Origin: Catellicoccus marimammalium M35/04/3
GTDB taxonomy: Bacteria > Bacillota > Bacilli > Lactobacillales > Catellicoccaceae
Length of the DNA: 64,000 bases
Assembly: GCF_000313915.1 (NCBI RefSeq)
Contig: NZ_AMYT01000017.1
Location: forward strand, 186,001-250,000
Direction of reading: 5' to 3'
Every line of letters begins with the position of its first letter. The stretch's first letter is position 1. Position numbers and translations under genes: made by a program. Below the pieces are notes generated by a model. The model ran no database searches. It had not been told where the DNA came from and saw only the letters and a list, made by a program, of their open reading frames with translations. Below, piece by piece: positions 14,858 to 20,037 of the stretch.

Positions 14858-16156
14858 TTACGGACGTAAGCGATGTAATAAACGTGGGAATGGGCTTGCT
14901 TCACGGATGTGTTCAATACCACTAATCCATGTTACTGTACGTTCTAGCCCTAAACCAAAACCACTGTGTGGTACAGAACCATACTTACGTAAATCTAAAT
15001 ACCAACCATATTCTTCTTCAGATAAGCCAAATTTTTCGATGTTTTCAGCTAATACATCATAGTCAACTTCACGTTCACTACCACCGATAATTTCGCCGTA
15101 TCCTTCTGGAGCGATTAAGTCTGCACAAATAACAACATCATCGCGTCCTGGTGCTAATGGCATATAGAATGGTTTAATTTTTGCTGGATAGTTCATGATG
15201 AATACTGGTTTTTCAAAAGAGTTAGCGATAAATGTTTCATGTGGTGAACCAAAGTCATCGCCCCATTCAATATCATCAAATCCATTTTCTTTTAATAATT
15301 CAATTGCTTCATCATAACTGATTCTTGGATATGGTGTTTGTGTATAACGTTCTAAAACGTCACGATCACGACCTAAAACATCTAACGCATATTCACAATG
15401 ATCTAATACGTTACGTACTAAAAAGGCAACATAATCTTCTTGCACTTTTAAGCTTTCATCTTGATGAGTGAAAGCCATTTCTGGTTCAATCATCCAGAAT
15501 TCAGTTAAATGGCGACGTGTTTTTGATTTTTCGGCACGGAAAGTAGGTCCAAAAGTAAATACTTTACCAAAAGCCATTGCTGCAGCTTCAGCATATAATT
15601 GACCACTTTGTGATAAATAAGCAGATTGACCAAAGTAATCTGTTTCAAATAATTCTGTTGTTCCTTCTGGAGCAGAACCAGTTAAAATTGGTGGATCAAT
15701 TTTAATAAAGCCACGGTCGTTAAAGAATTCATAAGTCGCACGAATAATTTCATTACGGATTTGCATAATCGCATGTTGTTTTGATGAACGTAGCCATAAA
15801 TGACGGTGATCCATCAAGAAATCTGTTCCGTGTTCTTTTGGTGTAATTGGATAATCACCACTTGTACCAATTACTTCTAATTGACTAATTTCAATTTCAT
15901 AACCAAATTTTGAACGCTTATCTTCGTGGATTTCTCCAATAATTTTTACTGCTGTTTCTTGTGGTAAATTTTTAATTTGAGCGAAAGCTTCTTCTCCTAC
16001 TGTTTCTTTTAAAACAATTCCTTGGAAATAAGCAGATCCATCACGCAATGTTAAGAAGGCAATTTTACCGCTAGAGCGTTTGTTGGCAATCCAACCATTA
16101 ATTTCTACAACCTCGTTAACATGGTTCTTTGAATCAATGATGCTAATTTTTTCCAT
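14858..16156 (-). CDS. asnS: Asparaginyl-tRNA synthetase
   Basis: A class IIb aminoacyl-tRNA synthetase of 432 residues. An OB-fold anticodon-binding domain (about 1-110) precedes the catalytic core. Motif 2 is in [21 protein letters not shown], and motif 3 is in [13 protein letters not shown] near the C-terminus. It lies 11 bp after ypmB, in the order dinG-ypmB-asnS known from Bacillus. The presence of AsnRS means Asn-tRNA is charged directly. Confidence 0.97.
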
Positions 16157-16167
16157 AAACTCACTCC

Positions 16168-16641
16168 TTAAAAGTTTGTAATTTTATTATAGATACTACC
16201 ATTACGGAAGCGTAATGAATAATAAGATAAAGTATGATCTTTATTCATTGTTGTGACTTCCCACACTGGAATACCTTTAATATAGCCAAAATTAATATTT
16301 TCTATCTTGTAGGGATGATATTTTTTTTGTACAATCTCTTGCGCTTGTTTTTCAGTAATTCCATCTTTTTGGTCTACTACCTTAATGGTATCTCCGTCTT
16401 TTGGAATGGAAACTAAAATTTCTTGACGTTTTTTGTTTTCTCCAGCAATCGTATAATACGTTTGATCACGTGTAAAAAGATAAAAGCGTTCTGGCTTATT
16501 CATATCTGCATATTTTTCTGCCAATTGAATCGCTTCTTTCCTCTCTTTACGAACTGGAGTACTTGCATAAAAGAAAAAGGCACCTACAAGACAAACAATC
16601 GTCACAATAGTAATTAACGATGTAGTAATTATTTTTTTCAT
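16168..16641 (-). CDS. ypmB: YpmB-like membrane-anchored protein (DUF5590/PepSY-like)
   Basis: A 157-residue protein with one N-terminal membrane segment (about 4-24) and an extracellular region with PepSY-like repeats ([23 protein letters not shown]). The function is not established. The position between dinG and asnS matches Bacillus ypmB. The ATG at 16641 is chosen because AAGGAGAGG lies just upstream; the longer frame to 16665 begins before that site. A TATAAT about 45 bases upstream could give it an extra promoter. Confidence 0.82.
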
Positions 16642-16725
16642 TTTTTGCCTCTCCTTTTTTCGCATAGATATATGTTTATTATAGACAATATTAAGTTCTT
16701 TTTCTACTCAAAATGATGAATTTCC

Positions 16726-18813
16726 TCATTTTTCTCTAGGAAAAGAACTTCTTTCAATAAGGCAATCTTTTCGATGTAATTTTTCTAAAAATATCTCTTG
16801 CCAAAGAGTTAGCGAAATAGTATTCATCAAAGTAATCTTTATATTTTGGAATAAGAACGCATAATAAAAACTTGTTGTAAAAGGAAGATATACTCTTTGT
16901 CCTTGAGATAACCATTTATTAATACTGTAAATTCCTTGTTGATTTACATAAGCATAAACGAATTCATTCGTCGATAAAGAAGAAAGTTGATCATATAAAA
17001 TTACTTCTTTCTCTTGTTTTTGAATGTTTGTTTCCTCTTTCCAATAAAAACAATAATCTAAAGGATAATAGCTTTTCCCTTCTTGGATTAAACATTCGTC
17101 AACTAAATAAATAGTTCCTACTTCCTGGATATGGATATAAAACTCCCATTCTCGTTTTTTATCTCGGAAAAGATAAGGATGCTCTTTGTCATCTATTCCT
17201 GTTTTTATTCCCATATTTTCTGATTCTAGATATACATATAAATAATCTGCCCATTGAATTAGTTCGATAAAAAAAGATTCAATTTCTTTTTTCTCACGTT
17301 TTCGATTTTGACTCTTTTGTACATATTGAATTCCTTTGTTCAAAATTGTGATATATTGCTGTAATTGATTTTTCATTTTCTCAATCGATGGTAATTTCTT
17401 CAAATCTCCTGTTTGATAGTATTCTTTCCATTTTTGATAGAAAAAGACCGTTTTTTTCTTTAAAAAAGGTAAATAAGAATTCCATTGTCGAGTTTGCTTT
17501 TCAGAAGGAAATTCAATTTTACTTGCAAAATCTTCTTTCGTTAATTGCTGTTGCCAATGCTTAAACTTTTGTAGAGATAAATATTCTTTTGTATTTTCTT
17601 CTAATAAAAAAGAAAAATAAGTAGCTTCATCCACATATAACGTATTTCGAATTGGATTTTCTTCTTCTTCATATTCTAAAAAACGTTCTTGAGTCATTAT
17701 AATATGTGCTTGATGTTTTATTCTTTCCTCTTGACGAACTAAAAAATCATAAGAATAGGTTCTTTTTCTTTTTTGTAAAAAAGATAGTCCCCTATGAGCG
17801 ATTTGTTGGAAAAAATTAGGACGAATTTTCAATCTTAATTCATGAAAACATCCTGTCTTTGTCTCTGTTAACCAAATCAATAATTTAATTTGTAATCTAC
17901 GGACCTCATCTGAATTTGACTCGTCCCAATGATTTTGAAATAATTCCAAATCAATATATTCAGAAGCACAATCCCAAACTTCATACCCTTTTTCCGTCCA
18001 ACGTTGATACTCATATTTAGGAATTAAACATAAACTATTTTTTTTCTTTTTTTTCATTTCTTCATAAGCAAAAAAACGATCTTTTTGTGGCAATTCTATA
18101 CCTATCGTTTTTTGTTGACCTACTTCAGCAAATGATAATGTGTCATCTTCTTTTTCTTTACGTAATAAAGAAAAGATGCCAATTTTAATATATTTAGGAT
18201 CAAGTTCCTTTTCCAAGGATATGAAATCGGCAAAAAATTCTCCTGTATTCTCATAAAAACAATCCGCATAACGTACGACTCGTTTTTGAATATGTGCAGG
18301 TAAACTCTGCCACTTTGTTTTTAGCGCCAAAAAAAGTTCAACTGTTGCTTCAACATCACTATCTGCTCGATGCGCATGACAATGAGTCAGTTTCAATTCT
18401 TTAGCTAAATTTTGTAATCGATATCCTTCTACGGTTGGAAATAATACCTCTGCTAACTGCACAGTATCTATGACAGGGCAAGAAAGAGGAGTCAATCCTT
18501 CTTGCTCAAATTGCATATTTAAAAAATTAACATCGAATTGTGCATTATGTGCGACTAAAGTACAATCAGTCAATAAATCATGTAAAATGGAAGCTACATC
18601 ACAAAAATAAGGAGCATCTTTTACCATTTCTTCTGTAATTCCCGTTAATTGAGTAATTCCTTCATGAATAGGCGTTTCTGGATTAATAAACGTATTAAAA
18701 CGTTGAATTACTTTGTCTTTTTGAACCAATGCACAAGCAAATTGGATCATCTTTCCTTTTTTAAAACTTGAATTCGTTGTCTCGATATCAATAATCGCAT
18801 ACGTTTTCTTCAC
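16726..18813 (-). CDS. dinG: DinG-family protein: intact DEDDh exonuclease, degenerate helicase part
   Basis: This 695-residue protein starts with a GTG codon preceded by GAGG. Residues 1-165 form a complete DnaQ-like 3'-5' exonuclease with DEDDh residues Asp9, Glu11, Asp94, His148 and Asp153. The remainder still aligns by eye with Firmicutes DinG: WLTETKTG at 314-321, and YVDEAT at 393-398 in the place of the DEAH box. No Walker A GxGKT/S is present between 200 and 310. Neither the SATL nor the GxFWEG motif of helicase domain 2 is seen. It is about 230 residues shorter than usual DinG. It follows clc by 21 bp and precedes ypmB. Confidence 0.85.
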   Translation of the reverse strand: MKKTYAIIDIETTNSSFKKGKMIQFACALVQKDKVIQRFNTFINPETPIHEGITQLTGITEEMVKDAPYFCDVASILHDLLTDCTLVAHNAQFDVNFLNMQFEQEGLTPLSCPVIDTVQLAEVLFPTVEGYRLQNLAKELKLTHCHAHRADSDVEATVELFLALKTKWQSLPAHIQKRVVRYADCFYENTGEFFADFISLEKELDPKYIKIGIFSLLRKEKEDDTLSFAEVGQQKTIGIELPQKDRFFAYEEMKKKKKNSLCLIPKYEYQRWTEKGYEVWDCASEYIDLELFQNHWDESNSDEVRRLQIKLLIWLTETKTGCFHELRLKIRPNFFQQIAHRGLSFLQKRKRTYSYDFLVRQEERIKHQAHIIMTQERFLEYEEEENPIRNTLYVDEATYFSFLLEENTKEYLSLQKFKHWQQQLTKEDFASKIEFPSEKQTRQWNSYLPFLKKKTVFFYQKWKEYYQTGDLKKLPSIEKMKNQLQQYITILNKGIQYVQKSQNRKREKKEIESFFIELIQWADYLYVYLESENMGIKTGIDDKEHPYLFRDKKREWEFYIHIQEVGTIYLVDECLIQEGKSYYPLDYCFYWKEETNIQKQEKEVILYDQLSSLSTNEFVYAYVNQQGIYSINKWLSQGQRVYLPFTTSFYYAFLFQNIKITLMNTISLTLWQEIFLEKLHRKDCLIERSSFPREK

Positions 18814-18834: not shown

Positions 18835-20037
18835 TTACTTTTGTGTAAAGACACTATATTTCCCAGAGCAAATATAGCTAGTAATGGTGACAAAGAAAAA
18901 GAAAATTGCTCCTTTCCCACCAAATAATTCAATTCCTAAAATAAAACAAGTTAACGGAGTATTTGTTGCTGCCGCAAAAACTCCTAAAAATCCTAGTGCA
19001 GAAATGAAACTGGCATCAAATGGAACCCAACGGCTAAGAAAATGTCCAAAATTGGAGCCAATATCAAATAAAGGCGTTAAGGTTCCCCCACGAAATCCTG
19101 TTCCTACACATATCATAGTATAGAGTAGTTTCCAAAAAAACCCAAATGGAGATGGAGTACCATCAATAGCTTCCTTTTGCATCGCCGAACTTAACCCTAA
19201 ATATTCTATATTATGAAAAATCAAAGTTAAAATGACAACACATAATCCTCCTAAAAAAGTAATCCAAACAGGATTTTTAATCCAAGTTTGCATTGACTTT
19301 TGCACTAAAGAAATACCAAAACGGTAACAACGACCGATACAAGCAAAAAGAATACTAATGATAAATAACCACACAAAAGTCATTAATTCTTCTTTTGGAT
19401 AACCAGTCACAGAAAAAACTCCTCTTTGATGTAAGTCAAAACAAGTCGTCACCCAATAAGATAATAGAGACGTCATAAATACAGGATAAATTGCATCTAA
19501 GCGAAAAGAGCGAGCTTTTGAAATTTCTAAAGCAAACAATGTTCCTGCGACAGGAGTGCCAAAGGTACAAGCAAACCCTGCTCCTAATCCACAAGTAATT
19601 AACCATTGTTTTTCTATGTCTGTAAATCGAAAATAGAAATGCTGATCTACTTGATCAATCATTCCACCTGCTAATTGAGTCGCAATGTCTTCTCGACCGA
19701 TTGAGGCTCCAAACCAATGAGAAGCAATCGTACCTAACATGGATACAGGAATTGCTCGAAAAGGAATTTTTTCTTCAGATCCATTGGCTTTGGCAATTAA
19801 TAATTTATTTCCTACTTGACTTGTTAAATGAAAATATTGATACATATAAGTTACCGCTGCACCAACAAAAGGTAAGCCTAAAATCATTATTGGATGCAAG
19901 GCTCGGACTTGCTCTCCTTTATTAATCGCTAAAATATAAATGGAAATAATACTCCCACATAAAATGGCTAAAATAAAAGAAATTACTAGCCATTTTAAGA
20001 CATAATATACTGTTGCATGAATTGAATGTTCTTTCAT
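18835..20037 (-). CDS. ClC-family anion channel/antiporter, possibly fluoride type
   Basis: A 400-residue membrane protein with about ten hydrophobic segments. ClC signatures are ASIGREDIATQ (GREGP region, external-gate Glu kept), GFRGGTLTPLFDIG (GGxFxP region) and AAATNTPLTCFILGIE. The GSGIP anion-selectivity motif is replaced by VGNKLLI. An Asn after the Gly at that place is reminiscent of the fluoride/proton antiporter (CLC-F) branch, so fluoride export is possible but unproven. It lies 41 bp after addA and 21 bp before dinG, with no terminator between them, so it is probably co-transcribed. Confidence 0.82.
   Translation of the reverse strand: MKEHSIHATVYYVLKWLVISFILAILCGSIISIYILAINKGEQVRALHPIMILGLPFVGAAVTYMYQYFHLTSQVGNKLLIAKANGSEEKIPFRAIPVSMLGTIASHWFGASIGREDIATQLAGGMIDQVDQHFYFRFTDIEKQWLITCGLGAGFACTFGTPVAGTLFALEISKARSFRLDAIYPVFMTSLLSYWVTTCFDLHQRGVFSVTGYPKEELMTFVWLFIISILFACIGRCYRFGISLVQKSMQTWIKNPVWITFLGGLCVVILTLIFHNIEYLGLSSAMQKEAIDGTPSPFGFFWKLLYTMICVGTGFRGGTLTPLFDIGSNFGHFLSRWVPFDASFISALGFLGVFAAATNTPLTCFILGIELFGGKGAIFFFFVTITSYICSGKYSVFTQK

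Follow-up and report, generated by a model that had tools for sequence, protein, structure and literature searches.

The window analysed here, a stretch of 64,000 nucleotides of the Catellicoccus marimammalium genome, carries on its minus strand a 695-codon open reading frame with a GTG start (16726-18813), followed after a spacer of only 60 bp by a gene for a TseB-like cell-wall regulator (16168-16665, minus strand; NF040668, 2.6e-18) and by asnS (14858-16156, minus strand; NF003037, 6e-183). The frame is a dinG (ExoDinG) ortholog and lies at the genomic place of the ExoDinG genes: in all 20 relatives examined tseB adjoins dinG, and in 19 of them asnS follows downstream, the 20th locus ending early. 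This conserved synteny led us to reject a horizontal origin of the gene. The TseB-like protein is strongly diverged; its score of 66 bits lies far below the 200 bits required for its family. In the window tseB and asnS are directly adjacent (16156-16168), while most relatives have between them a gap of about 1.2 kb with one more gene, which we take to be aspB and which seems to have been lost or moved in Catellicoccus. Between dinG and addA lies a gene for a ClC-type chloride channel (18835-20037, 400 aa), whose match to the ClcA model (471 positions) is confined to positions 124-414. C. marimammalium, whose first isolates came from marine mammals and which often occurs in gull faeces, is a member of the Lactobacillales with a reduced genome (PMC3569323). 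The assembly consists of 23 contigs and 1,284,694 bases (1.28 Mb) and is 99.3% complete.

Residues 1-222 of the protein (18148-18813, minus strand) constitute a DEDDh 3'-5' exonuclease domain with a helical bundle (Pfam RNase_T, 8.7e-35; pLDDT about 90). RNase_T (PF00929) was the only Pfam match of the whole protein, which has no match to a helicase domain, and the DnaQ, ExoI and TREX folds were matched structurally. The first-pass annotation had listed Asp9, Glu11, Asp94, His148 and Asp153 as kept, and both the alignment and the RNase_T match bear this out; His89, corresponding to His90 of S. aureus DinG (SaDinG), is also present, and all six residues align with the S. aureus active site (PMC12345164). 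A profile built from intact Lactobacillales ExoDinGs matches residues 1-227 with an E value of about 1e-89. Among the family models, those of PolC come next after those of DinG. The PolC/DnaQ-type DEDDh exonucleases (PF00929) have the fold and the catalytic residues in common with the Catellicoccus protein, but they lack the DinG-derived C-terminal part and occupy another genomic place. PADLOC matches (DEDDh and PDC-S48) were rejected as a sign of defence, since they cover only the generic exonuclease part.

The rest of the protein is, judged by its motifs, a collinear and ATPase-dead remnant of the helicase half. The intact-ExoDinG profile matches residues 284-529 (E 1.3e-24) and nothing between 227 and 284 or after 529; the two E values, together with the conserved dinG-tseB-asnS order, exclude a chance resemblance to DinG. 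The NCBIfam cut-offs are far from reached (TIGR01407, 266 vs 547.7 bits; NF005981, 249 vs 789; NF005569, 200 vs 794). Compared with the intact Lactobacillales relatives outside the Streptococcaceae (882-945 aa), the protein is about 190-250 residues shorter, which agrees with the deficit of some 230 residues first estimated, and none of the other helicase-dead ExoDinGs described below (29 in all) is as short.

The segments of this half (all minus strand) have fared differently. Residues 223-274 (17992-18147), the collapsed Walker A/motif Ia segment of motor domain 1, are predicted to be disordered (pLDDT <50 throughout); here EVGQQKT (aa 230-236, 18106-18126) aligns with EAGTGLGKT of the relatives. 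The pseudo-FeS domain and the second half of motor domain 1 (aa 275-420, 17554-17991) have a profile match and a mostly confident model (pLDDT mostly 75-94, lower near 370-410). They contain the pseudo-FeS motif WLTETKTG (aa 314-321, 17851-17874), whose W, L, T (318) and G are invariant in an alignment of 30 dead and intact ExoDinGs (A2), and DEAT, which replaces DEAH in the alignment (aa 395-398, 17620-17631; VDEAT, aa 394-398). An Arch-like helical region follows (aa 421-533, 17215-17553; pLDDT mostly 67-84, long helices at 438-533), and then the remnant of motor domain 2 (aa 534-695, 16729-17214), mostly with pLDDT <50 and with the weakest coding signal, which has neither motif VI nor the ssDNA-gripping residues (F804, F823, R858 and Y864 in SaDinG). 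Motifs Ia and VI are deleted in the alignment; the LPF and D-x-R...Y segments are missing together with motif VI, and the protein stops short at its C-terminal end. Of motif III (VGATL) a trace can be recognized in LVDECL near residues 570-575, and TTSFYYAFL is perhaps what remains of motif V (ASFFEGVD).

A pattern search for Walker A, DExH and motif VI found none of them in the protein, and a profile search, named beforehand as the check that could overturn the reading, found no intact Walker A or B and left it standing. The earlier description of a DinG-like remainder with WLTETKTG and DEAT is thus confirmed, while its statement that no ATPase motif is left holds for functional patterns but not for traces, the ruined Walker A and motif III being recognizable. 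The pseudo-FeS/FeS domain with W-x-T-x-T-x-x-G typical of ExoDinGs is present, and their helicase core, which would carry Walker A, DEAH and motif VI, is absent; nor does the protein show the pair of RecA domains that enclose an ATP site in SF2 (XPD/DinG) helicases, as the motifs are absent and the P-loop segment and most of motor domain 2 have pLDDT <50. The whole genome (99.3% complete) yielded no match to Helicase_C_2 (PF13307) and thus offers no DinG/YpvA-type helicase as a back-up, and we rejected the idea of a second DinG-type helicase covering for the dead one. A sequencing artefact as the cause of the motif loss was rejected as well, given the 235-fold coverage (PMC3569323) and the open frame.

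Whether the ExoDinGs of Bacillota act as helicases or as nucleases is contested. S. aureus DinG reportedly had no helicase activity in an earlier report, a view on which the first-pass annotation had built. This premise is superseded by the 2025 structure paper, which demonstrated 5'-3' helicase activity and put much of the inhibition of the nuclease by ATP, which Mg2+ counteracts, down to metal chelation (PMC12345164). The DinG of Listeria monocytogenes is not repressed by ATP and remains an active exonuclease when its ATPase site is mutated (E465A) (PMC12774634), and B. subtilis DinG degrades ssDNA without ATP (PMC12525004); from this biochemistry of the orthologs the motor is dispensable for the exonuclease. 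Loss of ATP control, proposed at first as the further step, is therefore not the key one, because the Bacillus and Listeria exonucleases are already ATP-free (PMC12525004, PMC12774634); the key step is the loss of ATP-driven translocation.

S. aureus DinG is also the best structural match of the Catellicoccus AlphaFold model. The two proteins (for S. aureus, PDB 8zef/9ii8; TIGR01407/NF005981) are alike in the DEDDh domain with its six active-site residues, in the pseudo-FeS domain and in a collinear helicase, and the Catellicoccus gene has the orthologous dinG-tseB-asnS position of the Lactobacillales ExoDinGs. They differ in that the Catellicoccus protein is without Walker A, Ia, DEAH, III, V and VI, misses the C-terminal part of motor domain 2 and has 695 residues instead of about 880-945. 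Listeria E465A, whose ATPase site was mutated in the laboratory, resembles the natural Catellicoccus state, its exonuclease having no need for ATP hydrolysis, although in the mutant a single residue is changed and the helicase is otherwise intact; likewise, the B. subtilis exonuclease is independent of ATP hydrolysis, as we propose for Catellicoccus. Another DinG fusion with one dead half, pExoDinG, is the mirror image as described in the consulted part of a 2025 review of DinG-like proteins (PMC11981726), with a dead exonuclease and a live helicase where the Catellicoccus protein has a dead helicase and an intact exonuclease. That part of the review describes this dead-exonuclease class and no helicase-dead one, and we found no earlier report of a helicase-dead ExoDinG in the open-access literature.

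The Catellicoccus protein does not stand alone. Helicase_C_2 (PF13307) was searched in 295 Lactobacillales genomes, and the ExoDinGs of the genomes with no or weak matches were then compared with several controls. The domain was unmatched in 17 of the 295 genomes, Catellicoccus among them, and at least 29 ExoDinGs from 17 genera and four families (f1, f3, f5 and f9) lack all three signatures, Walker A, DExH and motif VI, where these should lie, a count (29/295) that is a lower bound since a second, YpvA-type helicase hides some cases, such as L083 and L085. By alignment the intact set has all three signatures, a few members missing one regular expression through a variant residue; the 28 other dead proteins have only two chance strings of this kind (DEAK/DEPQ), away from the motif position. 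The six active-site residues, including H90, are present in every dead (29/29) and every intact (23/23) ExoDinG. Dead proteins (L056-L080, L083, L085, L088 and L089) thus come from many genera, most of which belong to f5, which is probably Aerococcaceae, because the best named match of most of its dead proteins is L089, from Aerococcaceae bacterium DSM 111020; L089, an 847-codon frame with all three signatures absent, is 40% identical to g22. Close matches suggest that f9 is Lactobacillaceae and f3 Enterococcaceae. The short DinGs of Streptococcaceae were rejected as further dead cases, the four sampled (794-842 codons) all keeping Walker A and DEAQ. In one genome (G005; family f6, genus g6) no ExoDinG was found, the best match to the Catellicoccus protein being a PolC-sized frame, and Helicase_C_2 is absent; dinG seems to have been lost altogether there.

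Dead proteins occur in four families, three of which also have intact members. On a tree of the exonuclease domain the dead and intact labels change six times (6-7 in bootstraps), against a mean of 18 when labels are shuffled, with none of 500 shuffles as low, although the starred branches alone force only one change and the count rests partly on weak nodes. Selection was estimated from pairs of helicase-dead relatives (NG86, non-exonuclease part); close relatives of the Catellicoccus protein itself were absent from our protein scan of named genomes, its genus and family being represented by a single genome. In the pairs L069/L070, L063/L080, L076/L078 and L062/L067 the dead helicase part has a dN/dS of 0.09-0.11, values that are rough for the three of these four pairs with dS >1.5; L063/L080 (dS 0.28) gives 0.09 by NG86 and 0.26 by YN00. 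Intact pairs give similar values (0.085-0.136). The dead helicase of the large f5 clade is thus under purifying selection, with dN/dS in close pairs of about 0.1 and not near 1, the value named beforehand as one that would speak against the reading. The divergent dead pairs L059/L083 and L064/L068 gave 0.4-0.6 with saturated dS.

What is kept in the dead helicases is selective. Walker lysine survives in 3 of the 29 dead proteins and the motif VI arginines in none, whereas F804 is kept in 24, F823 in 25, R858 in 24 and Y864 in 27. In SaDinG these four residues contact ssDNA, and their alanine mutants lose helicase activity (PMC12345164). They correspond, in the alignment with the S. aureus protein, to the LPF, F, D-x-R and Y among the invariant C-terminal residues of the f5 clade (L747 P748 F749, F772, M780, D804, R806 and Y812 in L062), and the L062 model, with a mean pLDDT of 83, is folded from end to end and has SaDinG (8zef) as its best match (TM 0.68). 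In a second type, formed by the Catellicoccus protein and those of f9 genera g49 and g62, the ssDNA grip is lost too. The pseudo-FeS motif W-x-T-x-T-x-x-G...E (17840-17874 in the window, aa 314-325) is kept in nearly all dead and intact ExoDinGs; we found no role assigned to it in the literature on S. aureus DinG. There is perhaps little short of an even chance that ATPase activity was lost repeatedly, in about six separate lineages of Lactobacillales, turning an SF2 motor into an ATP-free clamp on which the 3'-5' exonuclease finds its single-stranded DNA/RNA held in place, and giving a selectively maintained class. The same tentative reading would have f5 keep exactly the ssDNA-gripping residues and Catellicoccus represent a second route, in which only a pseudo-FeS/Arch guide is left.

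In Catellicoccus, retention is again uneven. Among the columns conserved in intact relatives, the protein keeps 88% in the exonuclease, 88% in the pseudo-FeS domain (7/8) and 71% around DEAH (5/7), vs 42% around Walker A; in motor domain 2 the share is 38% in the middle and drops to 6% at the end. With so few columns, the contrast between pseudo-FeS and Walker A within this one protein does not reach significance (Fisher p 0.07). The pseudo-FeS motif retains its W, T, T, G and E. AlphaFold is confident for residues 1-222 and largely so for 275-533, while 223-274 and most of 534-695 have pLDDT <50. The coding signal is normal to low over most of the gene and lowest over 541-695, the last 155 codons lying in the 0-1 percentile of 150-codon windows of the region. 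The first-pass annotation had taken the open frame as a sign of selection. Chance openness is indeed not the explanation, as the probability that 480 random codons contain no stop is about 1e-16, but selection on every part does not follow. Column retention, model confidence and coding signal by region support maintenance of residues 1-222 and 275-533, the latter being the pseudo-FeS/Arch part, but not of the stretch from 534 to 695; the last 160 or so residues may be drifting or decaying.

At the level of sequence, then, the analysis establishes the loss of the ATPase motifs, the intact nuclease site, the recurrence in at least 17 genera and the purifying selection in pairs of close relatives. 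We propose, as the probable explanation, that the Catellicoccus protein is an ATP-independent DEDDh 3'-5' exonuclease acting on 3' ends of single-stranded DNA and/or RNA, with the former helicase passively guiding the substrate; for this protein we infer nuclease activity, ATP independence and the guiding role of the remnant. The fused XPD-like helicase would no longer bind or hydrolyse ATP and has lost its coupling arginines, and the pseudo-FeS domain (W-x-T-x-T-x-x-G...E) with the helical Arch part would most likely guide or dock the substrate for the nuclease. ATP use was probably lost in lineages that need the nuclease alone, for rRNA quality control or to remove R-loops or 3' tails, and the shell of the motor was retained as a clamp or guide. 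By analogy with Listeria, a likely cellular job is trimming unprocessed rRNA 3' ends; by analogy with B. subtilis, it is likely to be the removal of R-loop RNA or of 3' tails at stressed forks.

The exonuclease could also be the only functional part, everything beyond about residue 222 being neutral baggage on its way out that has not yet met a stop, which we consider unlikely while giving it real weight. The mostly disordered model and weakest coding signal of residues 534-695 would fit, as would the C-terminal end already gone among the 230 or so lost residues, 60 bp before the next gene, and a GC content that falls after residue 200 (28% in the post-exonuclease part vs 34% in the exonuclease part, as expected under relaxed constraint). 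Such baggage is, however, hard to reconcile with a largely confident model and a DinG profile match (1.3e-24) for residues 275-533, with seven of eight conserved pseudo-FeS columns kept, with some 475 codons past the exonuclease free of stops and frameshifts where the other frames each have 29-55 stops, and with purifying selection on comparable dead helicases of other genera. A rather improbable alternative is that the remnant was recruited as a surface for a protein partner (e.g. RecA, PolA or the ribosome) and not for nucleic acid. The pseudo-FeS motif does survive without the ssDNA grip in the Catellicoccus protein, L056, L057, L059 and L083, but the largest dead clade keeps the ssDNA-contacting residues of SaDinG, which points to nucleic acid there. 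That the whole gene is a pseudogene open by accident, in a reduced genome (1.28 Mb) and with high divergence outside the exonuclease, is very improbable in view of the conserved exonuclease columns (88%), the complete catalytic residues, the intact frame and the preserved GC1>GC2>GC3 pattern. Scarcely credible is a cryptic ATPase that still binds and hydrolyses ATP with motifs diverged past recognition: K235-T236 of the ruined Walker A and D395-E396 of DEAT are still there, but the protein lacks the P-loop glycines, motifs Ia and V and the arginines of motif VI, and in the model the P-loop segment comes out disordered and motor domain 2 unfolded.

What would a guided, ATP-independent exonuclease mean for these bacteria? 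The helicase-dead ExoDinG recurs in Lactobacillales and is absent from the consulted part of the 2025 review (PMC11981726). The label 'ATP-dependent helicase DinG' would be misleading in these genera, as the proteins are probably not helicases. The residues lost (Walker A, motif VI) and those kept (ssDNA grip, pseudo-FeS motif) point to the part of the helicase from which the nuclease profits, and the retention of the shell of the motor despite repeated loss suggests that this shell is useful in itself. In the sampled set, repeated loss of the ATPase together with full retention of the nuclease marks the exonuclease as the selected function and the motor as dispensable in these bacteria.
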